Origin: Sideroxydans sp.
Lineage (GTDB): Bacteria; Pseudomonadota; Gammaproteobacteria; Burkholderiales; Gallionellaceae
Assembly (NCBI GenBank): GCA_027310725.1
Contig: DAIDAG010000068.1
Location: forward strand, 1 to 64,000
Direction: 5' to 3'
Length of the DNA: 64,000 nucleotides
A program made the position numbers and the translations under genes. Positions 44,509-58,654 of the stretch are shown piece by piece. Positions within the stretch are counted from its first letter, which is position 1. Every line of letters begins with the position of its first letter. Under the pieces are notes generated by a model. That model was not told where the DNA came from. It made no database searches and saw nothing but the letters and a program-made list of their open reading frames with translations.

Positions 44509-44569
44509 TTTGGAATATCAGCTTACAGTTATTTTCAGGCAAAAATTAGGACTTTCGGACATTTTATCG

Positions 44570-45799
44570 ATGGATGTTATGGATACAAAGTTCAAGTCAA
44601 CAAATGAGTCGGCCAACGTGGATTTCTACTGGACACGCGACCCTGAGTTGGTGTTTCCCGGCAAGAATGGCGGGCTGGAGGCTTGCGTAGAGCAGGAATT
44701 CACTGCATCCCGCACCAGTGACCTCAAGACACTGCTGAACACTTTCCTGGAAACAGCCACCAGTTTTATCAAGGCCAAGGCCGCTGTGGTGCGGGTTTTG
44801 CTCCCTGACGAGCAGACCCTGCAAGTTATCAGCGCAGTCGGACTGACCGGGGAAGAACTGGAAGCCGAGCGCATCGTCGAACTGGCCTGCGAAGATTGCG
44901 GCAAAGACGCTTTCAAACATGGCCTCTGCTCAACCAACATCGAGAGTTGCACTACCCGAAGCGGCGACCAGCCAAGACAGTTTCGTTCTGTGATCTCCAT
45001 TCCACTCGTATGCCGCAACACCCCTGAAGTTGTGCTCGGTGTTTTCACGCTTTTCTTTGACACGCCCCAATCCTCATCCGGCAATTCGGCAACCATGGCG
45101 AGCAGTTTCGCCGACCTGCTTGGTTCTCTAATCGAACACATCAAATCCACACGCGAAGCCAAACGGGAAGAATTGTTGATGGAACGTCAATCGATAGCAA
45201 ACGATATCCATGATTCGCTTGCACAGACCTTAAACTATGCACGCATGAGTACTACGCTGCTGAGTGACGCGATACGTAACAACAATGAAGTGATGGCAAC
45301 AAAATATGTTCGCGATATCGATGAGGCTCTCGAAATCGGTCAAAAATCCGTTCGTACGCTGATCACTGATTTTCGCAGCGATATGGATCCGGCCGGCCTT
45401 CTGCATGCACTGCAGACCCTTGTCGAGCAGTTTGTCCTGAAGCATTACATTGTTCTTGATTGTTCTATCCGTGTCGCCGATCTAGACCTACCCCTGGAAC
45501 ATGAGATTCAGACGTATCACATCGTACGTGAGGCACTCTCCAACATTGCAAAACATTCCAGCGCGAGCCATGCACGGTTGATAGTCGATCATCTATGCGG
45601 CTACTATGTATTCACAATTGAAGACAATGGCGTTGGAACATTTTCACCATTGGAAGGGCATTACGGGATCATCATCATGCGCGAACGCGCACAACGTATC
45701 GGCGGTGAAATTAAAGTGGAAAGCACGAAAGGATTGGGAACCTGCGTACAACTGTTCTTCCCTGAACCCGAGTTGAACTGGAGAACTGCGCATGGATAA
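44570..45799 (+). CDS. NarX-type sensor histidine kinase (GAF-HisKA_3)
   Basis: About 409 residues from the preferred ATG at 44570 (another is at 44579; the ORF track uses an upstream TTG). A GAF-like domain (about residues 45-200, with several cysteines: ELACEDCGKD, STNIESCTT) precedes the phosphoacceptor helix ERQSIANDIHDSLAQTLNYAR and a NarX-type ATPase domain (EDNGVGTFSP). No membrane helix, so it senses an internal signal; the cysteines might bind a redox cofactor. It overlaps the response regulator gene by eight bases. Confidence 0.88.
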   Translation: MDVMDTKFKSTNESANVDFYWTRDPELVFPGKNGGLEACVEQEFTASRTSDLKTLLNTFLETATSFIKAKAAVVRVLLPDEQTLQVISAVGLTGEELEAERIVELACEDCGKDAFKHGLCSTNIESCTTRSGDQPRQFRSVISIPLVCRNTPEVVLGVFTLFFDTPQSSSGNSATMASSFADLLGSLIEHIKSTREAKREELLMERQSIANDIHDSLAQTLNYARMSTTLLSDAIRNNNEVMATKYVRDIDEALEIGQKSVRTLITDFRSDMDPAGLLHALQTLVEQFVLKHYIVLDCSIRVADLDLPLEHEIQTYHIVREALSNIAKHSSASHARLIVDHLCGYYVFTIEDNGVGTFSPLEGHYGIIIMRERAQRIGGEIKVESTKGLGTCVQLFFPEPELNWRTAHG

Positions 45800-46499
45800 C
45801 AAACTAAAGATCGTGCTGGTAGACGACCAGGGCCTGTGTCGGCGCGGCCTAAGCGAACTGCTCACGCACTGTTACGATTTCAACGTACTCGGCGCAGTCG
45901 GTTCAATCGAAGATTTGCGCGTTCTTATTCAGGAGCAGCCGGACCTGTTGGTCATGGACCTGCGTATGAAACCGATGGACGGTCTAGCCATGCTTGAGCA
46001 GCTGCGCAAGGAAGGCTGCACCATTCCTGCCGTGATGTTGACCATGAGTGATTCAGAAACGGATCTGGGCAATGCGATACGTGCGGGGGTGCGTGGCTAT
46101 CTGCTCAAGGATATGGCACCGGAAGAAGTGGTGGATGCCATTCGCCGCGTTGCTGCCGGCGAATTGGTGGTCGCACCGACCATGACGGTGAAGATGATCG
46201 AAATGCTGCGCGGAGATCAGCCGGGGCAGGAGCCGAAGAATTCACTCAAACTACTGACCGAGCGCGAACGCGAAATCCTGCAATTGCTCTCTCGCGGTGA
46301 AAGCAACAAGGCCATCGCTCTCACCCTGTCGATCAGTTACGACACCGTAAAGCAACATGTGCGTCACATCCTGAACAAGCTCAACCTGTCGTCGAGAGTG
46401 AAGGCTGCTGTGCTTTTTGCCAAGGAACAAGGGACACCGGAAAACAGCGAATCGTCATCGAATATGCAGATCAGCTCAAAGAAGCAAGGAAGCAAGTAA
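45792..46499 (+). CDS. NarL/FixJ-type response regulator
   Basis: A 235-residue regulator: receiver domain with the phosphorylated aspartate in LLVMDLRMKPMDG (near residue 56) and a LuxR-type helix-turn-helix (LTEREREILQLLSRGESNKAIALTLSISYDTVKQHV, about 150-190). It pairs with the kinase upstream and lies 44 bases before sqr. NarL-type DNA-binding domains recognise paired heptamers, which fits the dyads found at dsr, sat/soe, hydrogenase and its own promoter. Confidence 0.93.
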   Translation: MDNKLKIVLVDDQGLCRRGLSELLTHCYDFNVLGAVGSIEDLRVLIQEQPDLLVMDLRMKPMDGLAMLEQLRKEGCTIPAVMLTMSDSETDLGNAIRAGVRGYLLKDMAPEEVVDAIRRVAAGELVVAPTMTVKMIEMLRGDQPGQEPKNSLKLLTEREREILQLLSRGESNKAIALTLSISYDTVKQHVRHILNKLNLSSRVKAAVLFAKEQGTPENSESSSNMQISSKKQGSK

Positions 46500-46543: not shown

Positions 46544-47815
46544 ATGGCACACATCGTCATTATGGGAGCAGGTCTTGGCGGCATGCCGGCGGCATACGAA
46601 ATGCGAGACAAATTGGACAGCAAGCACAAGGTTACGGTTGTCTCAAACACCGAGAACTTCCATTTTGTCCCATCCAACCCGTGGGTAGGTGTGAGGTGGC
46701 GTGACCGCAAGCAGATCGAGTTTCCCGTGCGCACTTATCTGGAGCGCAAGGGCATCGAATTCATCTCCACTGGCGTCAAACGTGTTCATCCCGACAAAAA
46801 CCAGCTCGAATTGAACGATGGCAAGAGCGTCGATTACGATTATCTGGTGATCGCCACTGGCCCCAAGCTGGCGTTTGACGAAGTCGAGGGACTGGGTCCG
46901 AACGGCGGCCACACTTATTCTGTATGTCATGTAGACCACGCGATGAAATCGCACGATGAGTGGGAAAGCTTCTGCGAAAATCCCGGCCCCATTGTCGTCG
47001 GTGCTGTGCAGGGCGCTTCCTGTTTTGGCCCGGCTTACGAATATGCCTTCATCATGGATACCGATCTGCGCAAGCGCAAGATTCGCACAAAAGTGCCGAT
47101 GACCTTCGTCACTTCTGAACCTTACGTCGGCCACTTGGGACTGGGCGGCGTGGGTGACTCCAAGGGCATTCTCGAGTCCGGCATGCGCGATAAGGGTATC
47201 AAATGGATATGCAATGCCAAGGTCACCAAGATTGAAGCAGGAAAAATGTTCGTCACCGAACATGACGACATGGGCGTGGAAAAAAAGAAACACGAGCTAC
47301 CGTTCAACTACAGCATGATGCTACCCGCCTTCAAGGGAGTCGATGCGGTGTTCGGAATAGACGGGCTGGTACAGGCGCGTGGCTTCGTCGTCGTGGACAA
47401 GCACCAGCGCAATCCGAAATACAAGAATGTCTTCGCAGTTGGTGTGTGTGTCGCAATCCCTCCAGTGGAAGCCACTCCGGTTCCATGCGGCACGCCAAAA
47501 ACCGGCTACATGATCGAATCCATGGTGACCGCCACTGTGCATAACATCCATGCAGATCTGGTCGGCGAACCTGCTGACAAGGAAGCAACATGGAATGCAG
47601 TTTGCCTGGCCGACTTTGGTGAAAGCGGAGTAGCGTTCGTTGCCATTCCGCAAATTCCACCGCGCAACGTGAACTGGTTCTCCGAAGGAAAATGGGTGCA
47701 CCTTGCCAAAGTCGCTTTCGAGAAATACTTCATCCGCAAGATGAAAAAAGGCACGTCTGAACCATTCTACGAAGGCAGTATTATGAAAATGTTGGGAATC
47801 GAAAAGCTGAAATAA
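46544..47815 (+). CDS. sqr: Sulfide:quinone oxidoreductase family flavoprotein
   Basis: A 423-residue FAD protein: IVIMGAGLGGMPAAYEMRDKL at the N-terminus and a second nucleotide-binding half. Cysteines typical for SQR occur in SVCHVDH, GASCFGP and FAVGVCVAIPP, and the C-terminus has an amphipathic region for membrane attachment. It oxidises sulfide to sulfane sulfur or polysulfide and reduces quinone. I cannot assign the SQR type. GAGAGGAAATAAC precedes the ATG. Cotranscription with the two-component genes is likely. Flavocytochrome c sulfide dehydrogenase is a less likely alternative as there is no signal peptide. Confidence 0.85.
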   Translation: MAHIVIMGAGLGGMPAAYEMRDKLDSKHKVTVVSNTENFHFVPSNPWVGVRWRDRKQIEFPVRTYLERKGIEFISTGVKRVHPDKNQLELNDGKSVDYDYLVIATGPKLAFDEVEGLGPNGGHTYSVCHVDHAMKSHDEWESFCENPGPIVVGAVQGASCFGPAYEYAFIMDTDLRKRKIRTKVPMTFVTSEPYVGHLGLGGVGDSKGILESGMRDKGIKWICNAKVTKIEAGKMFVTEHDDMGVEKKKHELPFNYSMMLPAFKGVDAVFGIDGLVQARGFVVVDKHQRNPKYKNVFAVGVCVAIPPVEATPVPCGTPKTGYMIESMVTATVHNIHADLVGEPADKEATWNAVCLADFGESGVAFVAIPQIPPRNVNWFSEGKWVHLAKVAFEKYFIRKMKKGTSEPFYEGSIMKMLGIEKLK

Positions 47816-47835: not shown

Positions 47836-47865
47836 AAAAAGCCCCGGAATCCCGGGGCTTTTTTT
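47836..47865. terminator. Bidirectional terminator after sqr
   Basis: AAAAAGCCCCGG-AATC-CCGGGGCTTTTTTT between converging sqr and the TlpA-like gene. Confidence 0.9.
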
Positions 47866-47879
47866 CTGAGCCAATTTCC

Positions 47880-48773
47880 TTATTTGCCCGACCTGGCGGC
47901 CACGTCGCGCAATAATGGCAAGTACTGCGGCCAGCGCGCAACTGGGCCGATGTTGGAAAACACTACGACACCATGTTTGTCCAGAATATACGTGGTGGGG
48001 AAAGCTGGGGCAATGTCGCGATCCCGTATCTTCATGCCATTTCCCAAAGATAGCATACTCATCTCCTTGGCCCTTATTCCCGAATCAGACAACGGTAGAT
48101 TCAAATGTTGTTCCAACATCCACTGGCTAGATTTTTGGAAATCTTCTTGCACCTGAAGCAAGACCATCTGTATATCTGCTAAAGGTTCCAATGATTTATG
48201 CAGACGCTGCAAATCAGGCATTTCGCTGCGGCAATGTGGGCACCAGGAACCCCAGAAATGTAGCAAAACCACTTTGCCGCGCAATTCGGATAACGTTATG
48301 CCCCTCCCTGATGCATCCGTGAAAGCCAGATTGAAAAATCGCTCGCCGCGATTCAGTCCGACATGAGCGCGGTTAGCCTGGTCAAGATTCAGGTACGGGC
48401 CCCAAAGCCGGGCCCAAGCATGAGCATCAAATACCACCTGATCATCCAGTGCATAGACGATACATGTTTGGCCGCTATCATCCCTGCAAGTCTGCAAGGC
48501 GCGGTCGGAAGCGGATTGGACAGTGGCTTCTCCGCTTTTCCAAGACCATGCACCACCCGGCGCGATGGCGAAAGCCCTGTGTTTTCCGGACGCAAGAAAT
48601 TCACTGTAGGCATCCTGTCCTGCACTGTCCAGATGTGGAACCGCCTTGATGTTGCCCAATGTCGCCGAAAGCCCAGTCAATGGAAATAAACAGATCAGGA
48701 TCGATAGCGCAGGCCATATTACGGTTCTGGAAATATCAAGACCGAACATTGATGTTGTCGACTCGGTACGCAT
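47880..48773 (-). CDS. TlpA-like periplasmic thioredoxin-fold protein
   Basis: A membrane-anchored or exported protein (hydrophobic IWPALSILICLFPLTGLSA) with a C-terminal TlpA/ResA domain holding the redox motif GSWCPHCRSEMPDL. An N-terminal extra domain of about 110 residues has two cysteines (LQTCRDDSGQTCIVYAL). The start is uncertain: the ORF opens at a TTG at 48893 inside the cytochrome b gene, and ATGs lie at 48803, 48773 and 48749. It follows the cytochrome b and octaheme genes, which suggests thiol chemistry for heme attachment or sulfur-compound reduction. Confidence 0.78.
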   Translation of the reverse strand: MRTESTTSMFGLDISRTVIWPALSILICLFPLTGLSATLGNIKAVPHLDSAGQDAYSEFLASGKHRAFAIAPGGAWSWKSGEATVQSASDRALQTCRDDSGQTCIVYALDDQVVFDAHAWARLWGPYLNLDQANRAHVGLNRGERFFNLAFTDASGRGITLSELRGKVVLLHFWGSWCPHCRSEMPDLQRLHKSLEPLADIQMVLLQVQEDFQKSSQWMLEQHLNLPLSDSGIRAKEMSMLSLGNGMKIRDRDIAPAFPTTYILDKHGVVVFSNIGPVARWPQYLPLLRDVAARSGK

Positions 48774-48874
48774 TCCATCGACGCCAGTCGAATGTTCGTG
48801 CATGACTTTCGTATCATCACCGCAACAAACGCCGCTACTTGTAGCGGTGTTTGTTGGCGCCGAAAGCGGCAGGT

Positions 48875-49480
48875 TCACTCCACTTCTTCCCAACCTGTGA
48901 TCATCGTCTTGATGTGCGCAGTGGGCTTATGCCCTGTGGTTGTCAGATAGACGTGTGCAATAAAGAAAACCAGCATCATGAAAGCCCCGGCCGTATGCAC
49001 GAGCGCCACGATTTCGAGACTCAGATAGGTATCTACACCCCAGATTTTCCAATAGGCGTAGAAAAGGTAGAACAGGCCTGAACCCCAGATGATAGGCGAA
49101 AGTACCGACAGTAGCGCGAGGTACGCCAATCGTTGCAACGGATTGTGCTTTTTCTCTGCAGTTTTATGAAATGGATTCGGTGCGTCGCGGAAAATGCCGA
49201 AGGCGTAGTAACGAACCATCGTATCCACTTTCTTCAGCGTCGGGATGTATTGCCTCCATTCACCAGTGGTGAATTGCCAGAAAATGGTGAGGGCCCAGAG
49301 AACCAGCAAAGTCCAGGCAAAGATGGTGTGGAGGTTTACCGCCTGTTCGAAACCGAACAAATTGTATGTGCCGTGCACTTCGAAGCCGGTGACCATCATG
49401 GCGATGACGAGTGCGGCCTGTGACCAGTGCCAGAAACGTTCATAGCGTTTGTAGAGATAGATACGGTTCTCTGCGTTCAT
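48875..49480 (-). CDS. Cytochrome b561-type membrane subunit
   Basis: A 201-residue protein with four membrane helices and paired histidines (RFWHWSQAALVIAMMVTG; NLHTIFAWTLL; VHTAGAFMMLVFFIAHVYLTTTG), as in thiosulfate reductase or hydrogenase cytochrome b. It overlaps the octaheme gene by four bases, so it is the likely quinone-linked partner of that periplasmic cytochrome. Confidence 0.9.
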   Translation of the reverse strand: MNAENRIYLYKRYERFWHWSQAALVIAMMVTGFEVHGTYNLFGFEQAVNLHTIFAWTLLVLWALTIFWQFTTGEWRQYIPTLKKVDTMVRYYAFGIFRDAPNPFHKTAEKKHNPLQRLAYLALLSVLSPIIWGSGLFYLFYAYWKIWGVDTYLSLEIVALVHTAGAFMMLVFFIAHVYLTTTGHKPTAHIKTMITGWEEVE

Positions 49481-51135
49481 TTGTTTTGCCCTTTTTTCTT
49501 ACTGGTATAAATACGAAGGCCACCGTGAATCATTATTCCTATCAGCGACAGCAGAACCAGCGTCCACCCCGCCATATCGAGCAACCGGTTGCTGTCGCGG
49601 GAGGGCATATACACACCCTCTATACCCTTCAAACGCCCGTTTTTGCTGTGGCATTGAGCACAGGATAAAGCGTCCTCTTCGGGCGCAACCATATGGGTGA
49701 TCGGCCAGGTCATCTCGGTGTTGACGAATCCGTACTCGCCACTGTATTTCAGGCCAGCAGCCTTCATTCCGGCACCGATTGCTTTCTGCCAATCGTAGTT
49801 GTGCCACAGGGCCGTCTCGTCCTCTCCTGCCGTATGTTGTACGGTCAGGATGCTATTCACCTTGTCATAGGGTTGTTTGCCGCGATGAACCTTGGTAGGC
49901 CAGATGCGTGAGCCGGGATCGTTCGGACTGCCACCCACTTCATTGATCTGCACGGTCTTGCTCGGATCGATCTTGTCTCCTATCACCTTGTAAGTCGAAA
50001 CGCCATTGAACCAACGGTATTCGGGTATGACGTAGGAATCCCACACCCATGCACCCTTTTTTGAGTCGAAAGCCCGACGCCCCGCACTATCCTTGCGCGA
50101 TATCGGATTGCCATCCGGTCCCATGGTGGTAGCTTGGGACCAGTCCCAACTCAACTCGGTGCCGATATCGTCGCGTGCGTACTCCGGAATATGACAAGTC
50201 TGGCAAGCGACTTTTTCCGTGTGCTGGTTAAGAATAGCCATAAAGCCATGGTGTGGTTTGTCGCCGTGACATGATTGGCAGGATGCAGGTGATTCGTCCG
50301 TTTTGCCACGAATATGTGCCGGGCCGCTGACTGCCGCCGCAACGTTGTAGCGACTCCCAGAAATCTGATGACTGGATGTGGCGTGGCACGTTACACAGGT
50401 GAAATTCAGACCTTTTTCATCCATGTGCACGTCGAGATATTTGCCAGGGTGCTGCAACGAACTATCGAGATCGCCGTGTTTCGCACCGTTAGCACCTGCG
50501 CCGAAGAAATGGCAGGAACCGCAGTTGCTGCGGCTTGGCCTGCCGATGCTCTGCGCCACTTTCTTGAGATCAGCAGGTTCAACGAACTTGCCTGATCCCT
50601 TCGGAAACTCAACGCGCTTGTACACCGGGCGTCCGGCGTCACCCGGCAGCTTGCGGTAAGTACCGGTCGTGTCGTGGCATACCAGACAATCGACGTTCTT
50701 TTCGACACTGAAGTCGAAACTGCTGTCTTTCCAACCGTAACCCGCATGACATGCCATGCAATCCTTTTCATTTGAAATCGGAGAGGTGCAGTAGTTGTTG
50801 ATGATATTTTTCTTGCCGCGCTTCTGCCCGGTCTTGGGATCGACCGATTCCCAGGTCCAGTGCTTGGTGTGCTGAACTTGCTTTGCAGCCTCGGTGTGAC
50901 AGATCAGGCAGGCTTGCGTCACTTCCGGACCGGTCTTGAAATTTTTCTGCAGTTCTTTGAATTTACTGTGGTCTGCCGTGGAAGCGTCTTTGGACTTGCT
51001 GGTTGAAGCGGTTTGTTGCACCGCTTGCGGAGCGATCGCCGCATCTTGCTTGGCGGGCATAGCGAAGGCGGTCAGCGTTGTTAGTACCATGCCGGTGGTC
51101 AATACCGGCAAAGTCATTCTGAATCTAGATGACAT
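49477..51135 (-). CDS. Octaheme c-type cytochrome, tetrathionate reductase family (OTR-like)
   Basis: A 552-residue exported multiheme protein with eight CxxCH sites (CLICH, CMACH, CLVCH, CGSCH, CVTCH, CQSCH, CQTCH, CAQCH), a signal peptide (LTTGMVLTTLTAFAMPA) and a C-terminal membrane helix (GWTLVLLSLIGIMIHGGL). The closest known type is octaheme tetrathionate reductase, which also acts on nitrite and hydroxylamine in vitro. With its cytochrome b it forms a quinone-linked periplasmic redox unit; the direction and substrate are open. Confidence 0.9.
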   Translation of the reverse strand: MSSRFRMTLPVLTTGMVLTTLTAFAMPAKQDAAIAPQAVQQTASTSKSKDASTADHSKFKELQKNFKTGPEVTQACLICHTEAAKQVQHTKHWTWESVDPKTGQKRGKKNIINNYCTSPISNEKDCMACHAGYGWKDSSFDFSVEKNVDCLVCHDTTGTYRKLPGDAGRPVYKRVEFPKGSGKFVEPADLKKVAQSIGRPSRSNCGSCHFFGAGANGAKHGDLDSSLQHPGKYLDVHMDEKGLNFTCVTCHATSSHQISGSRYNVAAAVSGPAHIRGKTDESPASCQSCHGDKPHHGFMAILNQHTEKVACQTCHIPEYARDDIGTELSWDWSQATTMGPDGNPISRKDSAGRRAFDSKKGAWVWDSYVIPEYRWFNGVSTYKVIGDKIDPSKTVQINEVGGSPNDPGSRIWPTKVHRGKQPYDKVNSILTVQHTAGEDETALWHNYDWQKAIGAGMKAAGLKYSGEYGFVNTEMTWPITHMVAPEEDALSCAQCHSKNGRLKGIEGVYMPSRDSNRLLDMAGWTLVLLSLIGIMIHGGLRIYTSKKKGQNK

Positions 51136-51195
51136 GATGTTCCCTTGATTTGACTGGGTGTGAAAATTACATGGACGCAGATCGCGATGTCTGTA

Positions 51196-51747
51196 TTAGC
51201 AGCCGCCCGCCGCGCCAGCACCTGAACCGCCGCTAGCTCCGGCACCGGGAGTGCCCTTGATCATTGCGGGCGCAGGTTTGCTCGGATCGAACTGGATGAA
51301 TTTGGCCTGATCTGCGGCGACATGACTCATGGTCTCGCCCACCATGGAACCGAACATCCCTCCCATGAATCCTGCGTTCATCATGCCAATATAGGTTTTA
51401 CCATCGTTTTTCTTATAGACCGATATCTTGCAAGGCATCAGGTTGGAGAGGAAACGAACCGAATCATCCTTGAGAATCGGTCCGGAATATTTTGTACTGC
51501 AAGCTTCGATCAAGAGCACCGGCAAGGTGTTCCCGCCATCCGCCTCGACTGCCTTTCCCGGATTGCGCAGGCCGGATAGCGCCCAGCCATTGCCTGTATT
51601 CTGAATATTTTGCTGAATGCGAGCGACAGTCTCTTCCACACCGAATGGACTTTGTACTTCCCTGAACATCATGCTCCCCATGAAGTTGTAAACGAGCACT
51701 CCGAAAAAACACGCTCCCGCGATAAAACCACCGACGACTTTCAACAT
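51196..51747 (-). CDS. DUF302-domain protein with N-terminal membrane helix
   Basis: A 183-residue protein: membrane helix at residues 5-27, DUF302 domain (about 35-150, pattern VEETVARIQQNIQNTGNGW ... LMPCKISVYKKNDGKTYIG) and a glycine/alanine-rich tail ending in cysteine. DUF302 proteins often accompany sulfur-oxidation genes; function unknown. It is transcribed just before the octaheme gene (60-base gap) and likely belongs to its operon. Confidence 0.85.
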   Translation of the reverse strand: MLKVVGGFIAGACFFGVLVYNFMGSMMFREVQSPFGVEETVARIQQNIQNTGNGWALSGLRNPGKAVEADGGNTLPVLLIEACSTKYSGPILKDDSVRFLSNLMPCKISVYKKNDGKTYIGMMNAGFMGGMFGSMVGETMSHVAADQAKFIQFDPSKPAPAMIKGTPGAGASGGSGAGAAGGC

Positions 51748-51850
51748 CCTGGAACCCTCCCTTTAGCGTCATTTAAAATAATTAATGAATGAATGCAGAC
51801 CAGTTAACAGCATGTATGGCCCGTTCCGTCGCGATGCGTAGATAGCCTCA

Positions 51851-52237
51851 TTAACAAATGCAACCACCCCCTCCAGGAAGCTTATGCTGCCTCTGGATCC
51901 TGTAGTTATGTGAGATAGCAGGCTTGATCACACCATTGAGGAAGTTGCACACCGCTTTTCGCGGATCGCTTTCACCACAGGTGATCACTTGAATACCACG
52001 CTGGGCCAGCTTCTCGACGAATCCTTGACTGGCATTCGCCGTAAGAATGACATCCATATCGTCCAGCGGATGTTTGCCTCCAGAGAACGCATGGAAAGAC
52101 ATTTTTATGGGAAGATCGAGCCACACTATCGCAGGGACATCGCAAGGGGTACCGACCTCGAAGATGATGAAGCGACGACTCTTTCCGGCATCTCCAGTAA
52201 CGCTCTTGAAGTTTTGGCTGGTAATCGCAATTTTCAT
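51851..52237 (-). CDS. NifX/NafY-like (Fe-Mo cofactor-binding fold) protein
   Basis: A 128-residue protein of the dinitrogenase Fe-Mo cofactor biosynthesis fold (MKIAITSQNFKSVTGDAGKSRRFIIFEV; ILTANASQGFVEKLAQRGIQVI). It ends in GGGGCIC, which could bind metal. The start at 52237 fits the family; the ORF track adds 21 residues. No nif genes are nearby, so a role in handling iron-sulfur or molybdenum centres is more likely than nitrogen fixation. Confidence 0.85.
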   Translation of the reverse strand: MKIAITSQNFKSVTGDAGKSRRFIIFEVGTPCDVPAIVWLDLPIKMSFHAFSGGKHPLDDMDVILTANASQGFVEKLAQRGIQVITCGESDPRKAVCNFLNGVIKPAISHNYRIQRQHKLPGGGGCIC

Positions 52238-52271: not shown

Positions 52272-54942
<2,671 letters not shown>

Positions 54943-54952
54943 GTCGTGTTCC

Positions 54953-55399
54953 TCAAACGTTCAGAAATTCCGCCAGAATGCGGTATTGCGCTGCGCTTTC
55001 GGCATTGTCGGTGCCGCGACCGGCAGCGATGCTCTCGCTGGTTCGCGCCATGCGTGCGTGCATCGCGGCATTCCATGCAGGGCTGTCGCCTGGCTCGGCA
55101 GGCTTGAGGCTGGCTACCGCGGCCTGCGCAACAAAATGACCAGCCTGACTATTCCAGTCGCACTCTTTTCCGCACTGGGTAAAACTGTCCACGCTGGCTT
55201 TTTTGGCCGATTGAGCAGCGGCGGCAAGCTCGTCCTCGGTAATGTCTGCGCGCTTGGCTGCGTTGATCGCGCCTTTTACTCTGGGATCTTTGCTCAGCAC
55301 CAGCACGTTTTCTGCAAAACGCGCCGCGACCAAGCGCTGCCCTGCCCTGGACAGTTTGCTCAAGGCGGCCTTGAAATCGCTGTCGTTATCGATGGCCAT
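54953..55399 (-). CDS. Hypothetical protein in the hydrogenase operon
   Basis: A 148-residue, alanine-rich, helical protein with two closely spaced cysteines (FTQCGKECDW). No signal peptide. It lies between isp2 and hynL with gaps of three and ten bases, so it is certainly co-transcribed. I do not recognise a family; a chaperone or assembly role for the hydrogenase is a guess. Confidence 0.8.
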   Translation of the reverse strand: MAIDNDSDFKAALSKLSRAGQRLVAARFAENVLVLSKDPRVKGAINAAKRADITEDELAAAAQSAKKASVDSFTQCGKECDWNSQAGHFVAQAAVASLKPAEPGDSPAWNAAMHARMARTSESIAAGRGTDNAESAAQYRILAEFLNV

Positions 55400-55402
55400 C
55401 GT

Positions 55403-56665
55403 CTATTCTCCTTCCGTCAGGTGATCGGCGATCATCTCGGTAAGCCCTACCACTGGAATATTCATGTGGTAGTGCTCCAATCCTTCCTCCAGCACGATGC
55501 GGCAATTGGCACAGGCAGTCACCAGAGTCTTCGCGCCGGTCTCTTCCAGTTGCGATTTCTTCTTCTTGAACGCCTGCAGTCGTAATGGTTCTGCTTCTTC
55601 GATAGCACTCACGCCACCTCCGCCTCCGCAGCACCAGTTCATCTGCCCGTGGTCGGTCGTATCCACAAAATTCTTCGCCACCATCTTCAGCAGGTTGCGC
55701 GGTTGCTCCAGTACGCCTCCGCGCCGCACCAATTGGCAAGGGTCGTGGAAGGTAAGCAGCGCATCCTCGAAGCCCGTGGTCTTCAGCAGCCCGGCGCTGC
55801 GGAAGCCGTCCAGCACTTCCAGGATATGCAGTACGTCGAAGGTATACGGACGCCCCACCAGATTTGGGCCCTCCCAGCGCAATGCCGTATAGGCGTGGCC
55901 GCACTCCGGGCTGATCACCGTTTTGACCTTGAGCTTTTCCGCGCCATCGACGATGCGCTGCACGAGTATCTTGGCGATGTCGGAAACACCGATCTGAATT
56001 CCGCTGTTTGTGGCTTCGAACGCTTCAGAGCACAGCGTCCAGGTCTTGCCGGCCTGCTTCATGATCTTGGCTACCGCGGCAAGGTATTCCGGAAAGTTGA
56101 TGATCTCCATCGAGGACATCAATACCAGGTATTCCGCACCTGCCACGTCCAGCGGGATCTCGATGCCGGTGTCTGCCTGCACATGCTTCATCTGCGCCTT
56201 CACCGCAGGCAGGCGTATGCCCATGGGACTGCCGATCTCTACAGAACGCGTGCTTGCCCCGATCAAATCGGCCGGAGCGTGGCCTGAAGCGGCCATGCCT
56301 TCACGCATCTTGCGGATCATGTAGGTCATGTCGTTGCCTACCGGGCAAGCCATGGCACAACGGGAGCACATGGTGCAACTGTTGTAAACAAGAGGCTTCC
56401 ATTCCTCAAGTTCTGCATCGGTGACCGGCTTGGACAGGCCGAGCATTTTTCCCAGCTTGCCCAGCAAGGTATATTCCTGCTTCCAGACGCGGCGCAACGG
56501 CTCAAGTTTGTGGATGGGAGTGTATTGCGGGTCGCCGGTTTCCGTGTAGAACAGACAAGCTTCTGCACACAGTCCGCAATGCACGCAGCTTGAAAAGAAA
56601 CTGGCGATCGGCGCATCGATCACTTCCTTGAAGGCATTGATGCCTTTGGCGAGGTTCACACTCAT
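55403..56665 (-). CDS. isp2: Isp2, HdrD-like iron-sulfur protein of the hydrogenase
   Basis: A 420-residue protein with two [4Fe-4S] motifs (CVHCGLCAEAC, CTMCSRCAMACPVG) and CCG domains (FHDPCQLVRRGG, WCCGGGGGVS), related to DsrK/HdrD. I start it at 56665 (MSVNLAKGIN) because AAAGGAGG precedes that ATG. With Isp1 it forms the membrane electron-transfer module that links HynSL to quinone or to heterodisulfide-like chemistry. Confidence 0.92.
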   Translation of the reverse strand: MSVNLAKGINAFKEVIDAPIASFFSSCVHCGLCAEACLFYTETGDPQYTPIHKLEPLRRVWKQEYTLLGKLGKMLGLSKPVTDAELEEWKPLVYNSCTMCSRCAMACPVGNDMTYMIRKMREGMAASGHAPADLIGASTRSVEIGSPMGIRLPAVKAQMKHVQADTGIEIPLDVAGAEYLVLMSSMEIINFPEYLAAVAKIMKQAGKTWTLCSEAFEATNSGIQIGVSDIAKILVQRIVDGAEKLKVKTVISPECGHAYTALRWEGPNLVGRPYTFDVLHILEVLDGFRSAGLLKTTGFEDALLTFHDPCQLVRRGGVLEQPRNLLKMVAKNFVDTTDHGQMNWCCGGGGGVSAIEEAEPLRLQAFKKKKSQLEETGAKTLVTACANCRIVLEEGLEHYHMNIPVVGLTEMIADHLTEGE

Positions 56666-56705
56666 ATTGATGCCTCCTTTCGACCGGCAGTGCTCCACGA
56701 ACTCG

Positions 56706-56889
56706 GGCGTCGGCCTCCGGCGTCACTCGCGGACGCTCTCATCCCCGCTGTGCGGGGCCCCTGATCGCTGCTCATGACTCGGCCTCTTGTGCTTTCGGCT
56801 GTAAACCTCAATTTCAGGCGTCGGCCTCCGGCGCCACTCGCGGACGCTCTCATCCCCGCTGTGCGGGGCCCCTGATCGCTGCTCATGAC
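56706..56889. repeat. Two 73-bp direct repeats between isp1 and isp2
   Basis: Copies at 56706-56778 and 56817-56889 differ at one base. Each contains the hairpin CCCCGC-TGT-GCGGGG and the flanks GGCCTCCGGCG and GATCGCTGCTCATGAC. The second copy covers the isp1 stop codon. This looks like a REP-type element, inserted or duplicated inside the operon; the hairpins could lower or stabilise isp2 expression. Confidence 0.85.
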
Positions 56890-57542
56890 GCCACCCCCTT
56901 CCGCCCGAAAATATCGCCGTTGTACCAGCGGGAAATGAACAGGGAGAATGTGTGGAACAGTTTGGTGAATGGCAGCAGTACGAGCAGCAACTCGACCGAG
57001 AACAGATGCAGCGCCAGCATCAGGGTGTATTCCACAAACAGGTGGTGATAAGCCATGTAGCCGGTCAACAAGGGAAGGAATGTCACCGCCCATGCAAGAT
57101 AATCACCGATACCCGACAGCATGCGTTTCACCGGATTATTGAGCCGGTGCGCCAGCAGTACACCCAAAGCCACCATCGCCGCCACTACCGATGCGTCGAC
57201 CAGCGGCGTTGGAAGATTCGGCCAGCGCAACCCCGTCATGCTGCGGAAGAATTCGATATGCGGAGCCAGGAAGAAGATGGCCAAAAATAGTCCCAGGTGA
57301 AAAACATAACCGCTGATATAGGTCACTGGATCGCGTTTCAACATCCCTTCCGCCGGTAATGACCGGGTAAATACGGTGCGCCAACCGCTGCCGGGCGAGT
57401 TGGCGCGAGGCTTGGAAAGATCGGCTTTGCGACCGAGGCTGAATATCTCGAACAGGCGCAATACGACACCTGCTGCAAACAACATCAACGCCCAGTTCAA
57501 CGCATTACCGCGCGCGAAAGTCAGAAGTTCAAGATGGTTCAT
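56883..57542 (-). CDS. isp1: Isp1, cytochrome b subunit of the hydrogenase
   Basis: A 219-residue NarI/DsrM-like membrane protein with about five helices and histidines for heme b (YISGYVFHLGLFLAIFFLAPHI; LMLALHLFSVELLLVLLPFTKLFHTF). It anchors Isp2 and HynSL. It overlaps hynS by four bases. Its stop lies in the second 73-bp repeat, so the last residues may derive from the element. Confidence 0.92.
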   Translation of the reverse strand: MNHLELLTFARGNALNWALMLFAAGVVLRLFEIFSLGRKADLSKPRANSPGSGWRTVFTRSLPAEGMLKRDPVTYISGYVFHLGLFLAIFFLAPHIEFFRSMTGLRWPNLPTPLVDASVVAAMVALGVLLAHRLNNPVKRMLSGIGDYLAWAVTFLPLLTGYMAYHHLFVEYTLMLALHLFSVELLLVLLPFTKLFHTFSLFISRWYNGDIFGRKGVAS

Positions 57543-58654
57543 TTTTCCTCCCGCGCTAGATCCTGCACCGTCACTGTTTCGTGAGACGCTTTGGCCGCAG
57601 CCTTGGTCGAACGATTGTGCCAGGTGATGGCCACACCGGCAGCTGCGCCGGCTGCGACAGATGCACCCAGCATCGCAGTTGTTGCCGAGACCGGCATCGA
57701 TAATGCTTTGTAGAATGGGCCTGCGTCCCAGAACTTCGGCTCCGAGCAGCCGATGCAGCCATGACCGGATTCGATGGGGAAACTTGTACCGTCATTCCAC
57801 TTTGTCGTCGCACAGGCATTGTGGGTCACCGGCCCCTTGCAACCGAGCTTGAACAGGCACCAGCCATTCCTCGCCGCCTCGTCGTCGAAAGTCTCCGCGA
57901 ACTTGCCCTGATCGTAGAATGGGCGGCGATAGCAACGGTCATGGATGGTCTCGCCGTAGAAGGATTTGGGCCGGCCCAGTGCATCCAGTTCGGGTATCCC
58001 GCCAAAAGTCAGGAAGTGGGCCAAAACACCGGTCATCACCACAGGGATGGGCGGACAGCCCGGCACGTTGATGATGGGTTTGTCCTTGACGATGTCGCTC
58101 ACCGAAACGGCGCCCGTCGGATTTGGATCGGCCATGGGAATGCCACCGTAAGTCGCGCAAGTTCCTACCGCCACGATGGCTGCCGCGCCTTTGGCGGTTT
58201 CCACCAGCATATCGTGATTGCTAATCCCGGCGATGACGGAATAGCCGGGATTGCCCATCGGGATCGAACCGTCGACGATCAACAGGTACTTGCCCTCGTT
58301 GTCCTTCATCGACTGCAAGCGGGCATGCTCGGCAGCCTCTCCGGAAGCAGCTTGCAGCGTATGGTGATAATCGAGGGAGATCATGTCGAAGATCAGGTTT
58401 TCCAGCGTCGGCGAATGCGAGCGAGTAATGGACTCTGTACAGCCGGTGCATTCCTGAAACGAGAGCCAGATCACGGATTGCCGTCGCGCTTTACTGATGG
58501 CCTCTGCCATCACGCTGGCCATCGCTGGCGGCAATGCCAACAACGCCGCCAACGAGGTACAGTATTGGAGAAATTCGCGTCGGGTGACCCCGCGCTGTGC
58601 CAAACCCTCACCCACTGTCCCGGGCAATATTTCCGTCTTCTGCGTTTTTTTCAT
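57539..58654 (-). CDS. hynS: [NiFe] hydrogenase small subunit HynS
   Basis: A 371-residue iron-sulfur subunit with a Tat signal (TRREFLQYCTSLAALLALPPAMA, residues about 24-46), the proximal-cluster motif ECTGCTES and medial/distal cluster cysteines (GHGCIGCSEPKFWD). A C-terminal hydrophobic helix (TAMLGASVAAGAAAGVAI) anchors it in the membrane facing the periplasm. First structural gene of the Isp-type hydrogenase. Confidence 0.95.
   Translation of the reverse strand: MKKTQKTEILPGTVGEGLAQRGVTRREFLQYCTSLAALLALPPAMASVMAEAISKARRQSVIWLSFQECTGCTESITRSHSPTLENLIFDMISLDYHHTLQAASGEAAEHARLQSMKDNEGKYLLIVDGSIPMGNPGYSVIAGISNHDMLVETAKGAAAIVAVGTCATYGGIPMADPNPTGAVSVSDIVKDKPIINVPGCPPIPVVMTGVLAHFLTFGGIPELDALGRPKSFYGETIHDRCYRRPFYDQGKFAETFDDEAARNGWCLFKLGCKGPVTHNACATTKWNDGTSFPIESGHGCIGCSEPKFWDAGPFYKALSMPVSATTAMLGASVAAGAAAGVAITWHNRSTKAAAKASHETVTVQDLAREEK

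Follow-up and report, generated by a model that had tools for sequence, protein, structure and literature searches.

An octaheme tetrathionate reductase-cytochrome b locus of Sideroxydans sp. with a DUF302 partner that ends in an invariant cysteine

What does octaheme tetrathionate reductase (OTR) act on in the cell? The question is raised by positions 48,875 to 52,237 of a 64,000-nucleotide stretch of DNA from Sideroxydans sp. (assembly GCA_027310725.1, contig DAIDAG010000068.1, positions 1 to 64,000), the whole of which was analysed and is called the window here. A preliminary description of this region had listed a protein with eight CxxCH motifs, a translationally coupled cytochrome b, a TlpA-like CxxC protein, a DUF302 gene and a nearby sqr, and had proposed a new quinone-linked periplasmic redox system in a sulfur oxidiser. 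Each of these components was recovered, the TlpA-like protein with its CxxC as WCPHC and the last gene as an sqr-like one. The novelty had to be relocated, since OTR with cytochrome b was known already; the DUF302 protein with its invariant C-terminal cysteine is the conserved third partner and the new point. Coordinates are positions in the window unless a relative is named; L numbers denote loci of relatives and G numbers genomes.

A DUF302 gene was located upstream of otr on the same strand in 50 loci as well as in the window, and all 51 of the encoded proteins ended in cysteine (GGC in 45, otherwise SGC, AGC or SNC), on a Gly/Ala-type tail whose linker ahead of the terminal cysteine varied from copy to copy. 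Three cysteines were invariant in these OTR-linked proteins, hereafter DUF302-C: two, C83 and C106, lie in the domain, and the third, C183, is the terminal residue. In an AlphaFold2 model built on a 29-row alignment, the window protein had a membrane helix at residues 2-27, a confident core and a tail at residues 166-183 with pLDDT below 50, and the fold of the core matched 1q9u, a solved DUF302 structure (Foldseek, E 1e-8, TM 0.84 on the target). A cysteine in the last two residues was found in none of 30 DUF302 proteins sampled elsewhere in the phylum, each from a different place, and the tail was absent from the second DUF302 protein of the window genome. The closest tail-less relatives (L208-L210) lay away from OTR and their match ended before the tail, and the one relative of DUF302-C that a plasmid search returned was a distant protein of Allochromatium that lacks the tail. 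Among 158 Gallionellaceae genomes, OTR was present in 26 of the 26 with DUF302-C and in 6 of the 132 others (Fisher 2e-24, relatedness not removed; the other statistical tests were likewise computed without removing shared ancestry). All 27 Gallionellaceae copies of DUF302-C, and 13 more in the order, were Cys-terminal and directly upstream of OTR, some of the genomes behind these copies being also in the first locus set. We consider it very likely that the terminal cysteine works with OTR.

A functional likeness was seen with SoxYZ, in which a flexible C-terminal arm carries a cysteine at or near its end (PMC5336275; PMC11237559). DUF302-C, compared with it by sequence, has the same trait, with pLDDT below 50 along the arm and a terminal cysteine in 51/51 proteins. 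The SoxY domain PF13501 gave no match in the DUF302 protein, which is not homologous to SoxY and differs from it in being membrane-anchored, so that the likeness is one of working like SoxY and not of being SoxY. Intermediates of the Sox pathway ride on the SoxYZ cysteine (PMC5336275), and cysteine-bound sulfur intermediates are proposed for DUF302-C by analogy; a sulfur-carrier role of its terminal cysteine appears moderately probable. A DUF302 protein of about 190 aa is encoded between soxA and soxB in Acidithiobacillia, where a role in polythionate oxidation was suggested (PMC5037610), although that protein is linked to sox and the one in the window to OTR.

Judged by sequence and by homology to a solved structure, the octaheme protein is a canonical member of the OTR family with its predicted catalytic residues kept. 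The 552-aa protein scored 610 bits against TIGR04315 (cut-off 375, model positions 1-440), and its CxxCH motifs, at residues 76, 126, 150, 205, 247, 286, 311 and 492, numbered eight as first described, as against a maximum of 2 in 20,000 shuffles of the same protein. It aligned over its full length with PDB 1SP3, the Shewanella oneidensis OTR (E 8e-117), with K219 opposite K153 and C116 opposite C64, reportedly the heme-2 ligand and an active-site residue, respectively, in the 2004 structure paper. A Lys ligand of heme 2 has been described for OTR (PMC11024163). Among OTR relatives, K219 was kept in 104/104 and the non-heme C116 in 102/104. The window protein shares with the Shewanella enzyme the eight CxxCH motifs, the heme-2 lysine and the non-heme cysteine; unlike that soluble periplasmic type member, it has a C-terminal membrane anchor, predicted from sequence, and its own cytochrome b, and Shewanella-type loci carry instead a monoheme cytochrome with a penultimate cysteine. 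The transmembrane tail has a K-rich end, with H537 kept in 97/104 and R541 in 95/104 relatives, and of the TIGR04315 members linked to cytochrome b, nearly all had a similar helix. The same family is tabulated as octaheme tetrathionate reductase in a Gallionellaceae pangenome that leaves its partners and role undiscussed (PMC10734462), and OTR is unmentioned in a thiosulfate study of Sideroxydans ES-1 (PMC8788666).

Partners were compared over 105 OTR loci (65 from contigs and 40 from genome surveys, some contigs being short), all of which entered the OTR tree. Where the flanks could be read, OTR was almost always followed by a cytochrome b gene, the exceptions being the Shewanella-type soluble OTRs and a few others (L048 and the second OTR of G054). 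In the window the translational coupling that had been described was borne out, the ATG of the PF01292 cytochrome b gene overlapping the OTR stop by 4 nt, and the candidate heme-b ligands H18, H51, H162 and H176 were kept in 75-77 of 77 relatives. Fusions in which one chain carries OTR, cytochrome b and, at its C-terminus, a response-regulator receiver domain were found in L159 (1839-4538, minus strand) and L161 (2985-5837, plus strand), with a further one reaching the contig end in L164 (5765-8200, minus strand); such fusions point directly to a joint function of OTR and cytochrome b, and the two almost certainly form a complex. The fusions also join a membrane redox enzyme to a signalling domain. 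The pairing itself was published for TDIS_1882/1883 of Thermosulfurimonas dismutans, in which OTR likewise adjoins a multi-helix cytochrome b and a membrane link was proposed (PMC4911364). No DUF302 carrier was reported there, in contrast to the window locus, of which the DUF302 partner is a feature.

As parts of the suggested four-gene order, tlpA and sqr fared differently: comparative genomics showed their placement not to be conserved. A TlpA-like gene was within 4 kb in 26 of the 50 DUF302-OTR loci, and in 22 of these 26 it was encoded on the other strand; the window, L002 and L039 were the only loci with sqr next to OTR, which makes it local to the lineage. Because orientation and adjacency vary among loci, both were rejected as obligate parts.

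The setting is one of sulfur metabolism. The nearest matches of the window were to Sideroxydans, Gallionella and Sideroxyarcus, as expected of a Gallionellaceae-type genome, and positions 8629-33209 hold a sulfur-oxidation island with dsrA, dsrB, dsrK, a dsrM-like gene, aprA, a SulP permease and a PhsA/SoeA-type molybdopterin reductase. Family searches of the window genome, which is 65% complete, added soxB. Given the established meaning of the dsr, aprA and soxB genes, the host is very probably a sulfur oxidiser, in agreement with the preliminary description. The same description held that a constant link of the homologues to nitrogen-compound reduction would speak against a quinone-linked periplasmic OTR in a sulfur context; the homologues did not show such a constant link, and rhodanese, sulfur-transport and redoxin families dominated among the neighbours. 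The commonest Pfam families among 90 neighbour proteins from diverse OTR loci were Rhodanese (9), Sulf_transp (6), AhpC-TSA/Redoxin (5) and cytochrome c, no nitrogen-respiration enzyme family was among these commonest listed families, and NCBIfam added the thiosulfate transporter TsuA (4). Matches to NtrC-like regulators near OTR were discarded as a nitrogen sign, as they reflect the general sigma-54 family. OTR was surrounded by a rhodanese, a metallo-beta-lactamase of the persulfide-dioxygenase kind and sulfide:quinone reductase (SQR) in L134, and by SQR, DsrE-like and TusA-like genes in L149, several of these names coming from sequence reading.

Proteins with a cysteine at or next to the C-terminus were also found beside OTR where DUF302-C was not involved. 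In L048 and in G134 (L223), a genome of the window's own genus, soxYZ stood beside OTR and SoxY ended in GGCG and TAGGC, respectively; in lucinid symbionts SoxYZ-S3 adjoins otr (PMC11237559). The row in L223 reads Cys-cytochrome, YeeE, OTR, cytochrome b, a further transporter, SoxY and SoxZ, and in G054 (L224) a second OTR, free of cytochrome b, lies next to a Cys-cytochrome, YeeE and a triple rhodanese. The Cys-cytochromes are small periplasmic monoheme proteins with a penultimate cysteine in 9/9 members. One of them (L158, 114 aa, about 1.6 kb downstream of OTR) has lost its CxxCH and retains the penultimate cysteine as its only one; in 399 genomes 7/7 strong matches were beside OTR, and a heme-less relative in G167 was not beside OTR and was without the cysteine. 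Similar ends were seen in YeeE-rhodanese fusions (GGCA or GGGCG in L142 and L157, the latter assigned by likeness to the former), in periplasmic proteins taken as ankyrin-repeat from a reading of their repeats (GGRCL or GGRCY in L154, L162 and L163), and in a small protein of about 104 aa (TAGC in L047, L057 and L138). With DUF302 excluded, a cysteine in the last two residues occurred in 15/145 same-strand genes within two places of OTR and in 12/572 farther away (Fisher 4e-5, on a composition-filtered gene set from an approximate gene caller), which is supportive only, because the test was post hoc, the genes are related, three of them encode cytoplasmic PF02579-like proteins and the gene calls are rough. 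On the OTR tree the DUF302-C trait changed at least 2 times and the Cys-cytochrome trait at least 7 times, and of two sister clades one held 8 loci with DUF302-C and the other 8 mostly with Cys-cytochromes, which fits an exchange of equivalent partners. A PF02579-like gene was present in 15 loci, with Cys-rich ends in relatives; its product was left out of the carrier count, as it lacks a signal and occurred in a minority of loci.

Considering these results, we propose a plausible model, in which the locus would encode an OTR that sits in the membrane, is linked to quinone and acts on sulfur carried by a partner protein, and to which we give about an even chance. The DUF302 domain would hold the arm at the membrane near OTR, and the tail would swing like that of SoxY, presenting cysteine-bound sulfur to the Lys-ligated heme 2. 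Cys183 might carry either a thiosulfate adduct (R-S-S-SO3-) or a persulfide (sulfane sulfur), and at the heme-2 site a sulfur-sulfur bond would be formed or cleaved with two electrons. Between this site and quinone the electrons would travel, in one direction or the other, by way of the heme chain and cytochrome b. The reaction would resemble that of SoxAX or TsdA, one of the partners being a protein thiol, though OTR is unrelated to both. SoxS/SoxW-type thioredoxins are thought to reset the SoxY thiol, and the TlpA-like thioredoxin may likewise reset the carrier thiol. The oxidative direction, in which a low-potential sulfur species would be oxidised with quinone as acceptor, is weakly favoured over reductive use, in view of the low potentials of the OTR hemes and of the sulfur-oxidising host. 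More broadly and more tentatively, at somewhat less than an even chance, OTR may be a sulfur enzyme that depends on a carrier and, with its hemes and its link to quinone, forms a counterpart of Sox chemistry; its physiological substrate would be sulfur bound to an exchangeable C-terminal Cys arm, provided by DUF302-C, SoxY, the monoheme cytochrome or others according to lineage.

Several points weigh against this model. The evidence is drawn from sequences. Purified OTR turns over tetrathionate, nitrite and hydroxylamine as free compounds, with no carrier present, and the terminal cysteine could serve heme maturation or disulfide exchange. At about -100 to -450 mV, as in MmcA, the heme potentials of OTR are low and compatible with either direction. 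The support from SoxB, present in 25/32 OTR genomes and 34/126 others in Gallionellaceae, is confounded by clade, and the enrichment of Cys ends near OTR has the weaknesses given above. About 40 of the 105 OTR loci, mostly of alphaproteobacterial-type and deep clades, showed no Cys-tailed neighbour (some of these contigs being short), so a Cys-tailed carrier is not universal.

The foremost alternative is that the locus encodes a plain quinol-driven polythionate (tetrathionate) reductase, or a reversible tetrathionate/thiosulfate enzyme, which takes free substrate and has DUF302 as an accessory that carries no sulfur directly. Free tetrathionate is indeed reduced by S. oneidensis OTR and by the Beggiatoaceae protein BOGUAY_2386, the latter faster than nitrite (PMC6449678), the OTR-cytochrome b pair of T. 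dismutans was interpreted in this way, and the many OTR loci where no Cys-tailed neighbour was seen are in line with it. We nevertheless hold it unlikely, as it leaves unexplained the invariance of the terminal cysteine, its restriction to OTR-linked copies and its recurrence in unrelated neighbours.

A helper in maturation or thiol redox is still less likely. ResA/CcmG proteins reduce or guard the heme-binding cysteines of c-type cytochromes, and the Cys-tailed protein, together with TlpA/ResA, might do the same for these cysteines or for Cys116 during assembly; a TlpA/ResA-like gene nearby in about half of the DUF302-OTR loci and the conservation of C116 as a non-heme cysteine would suit this role. 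Yet the TlpA-like gene is mostly on the other strand, and SoxY, rhodanese and sulfur transporters in other clades point to sulfur handling, not maturation. Reduction or detoxification of nitrite, hydroxylamine or NO, as in the ammonification reading of OTR, is improbable: OTR reduces nitrite and hydroxylamine in vitro (PMC4484225) and such a role was proposed in Deferribacter, but sulfur families lead among the 90 neighbours and no nitrogen-respiration enzyme family is among the commonest there, the hydroxylamine oxidoreductase (HAO) reading of a Magnetospirillum homologue that was unresponsive to nitrogen source or oxygen was rejected (PMC12774639), and in NCBIfam the window OTR matched no HAO/ONR family model at E 0.01 or better.

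The features of the locus are given in Table 1. In order of transcription on the minus strand they are yfhL, the PF02579-like gene, DUF302, otr, cytochrome b and the TlpA/ResA-like gene, and these six genes, bracketed by strong predicted hairpins of the terminator kind, plausibly form one transcription unit. The DUF302 gene lies 60 bp upstream of otr. Because the start of tlpA is likely near 48773, tlpA and the cytochrome b gene do not overlap; tlpA adjoins the left edge of the region first described (48875) from outside, and the right edge (52237) is the start of the PF02579-like gene, which goes unnamed in the title of the preliminary description.

Table 1. Predicted features of the OTR locus in the window.
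Feature	Position	Strand	Support
Sulfide:quinone reductase-like flavoprotein (sqr-like), convergent	46544-47815	+	Type III SQR model 118 bits, below cut-off
Terminator-like hairpin after tlpA	47836-47863	-	12-pair stem
TlpA/ResA-like periplasmic thiol-disulfide oxidoreductase, WCPHC	47880-48773, within ORF 47880-48893	-	PF00578/PF08534; start estimated
Cytochrome b, b561/PhsC-like, putative quinone-side subunit	48875-49480	-	PF01292 84 bits vs 30
otr, octaheme c-type cytochrome (OTR family), N-terminal signal	49477-51135	-	TIGR04315
DUF302 protein	51196-51747	-	PF03625 38.7 bits vs cut-off 23
PF02579-related small protein (dinitrogenase FeMo-cofactor family), predicted cytoplasmic	51851-52237	-	PF02579 E 2e-4, below cut-off
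yfhL, YfhL-type 4Fe-4S ferredoxin, first gene of unit	52272-52526	-	NF033683 132 bits, cut-off 86
Terminator-like hairpin before yfhL	52664-52686	-	10-pair stem with T-run

The region that immediately precedes the OTR unit (53173-58654, minus strand) encodes both the large and the small subunit of a NiFe hydrogenase, together with a membrane protein of TmcC/Isp1-like type, an iron-sulfur protein of DsrK/HdrD-like type and an extra 148-aa gene. Its layout is Isp-type and group 1e-like, and it recurs in L002 and L039. A NarL-type two-component pair (GAF histidine kinase and LuxR-type regulator; 44510-46499, plus strand) is located just upstream of sqr and accompanies it in L002 and L039. Two conserved families of unknown function also occur upstream of DUF302: c16 (139-160 aa, single helix) does so in 8 loci and c25 (about 477 aa, membrane) in 6, L004, L009 and L016 being among these loci.

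If the model is true, carrier-bound sulfur would answer what OTR does physiologically. A partner whose last residue is always cysteine, and in whose place sister lineages have other Cys-tailed proteins, offers a simple, testable idea for the natural substrate of OTR and gives a first proposed function to this subgroup of DUF302 proteins. It would also connect OTR with the sulfur relay of Sox, Dsr and rhodanese in bacteria that oxidise iron and sulfur.

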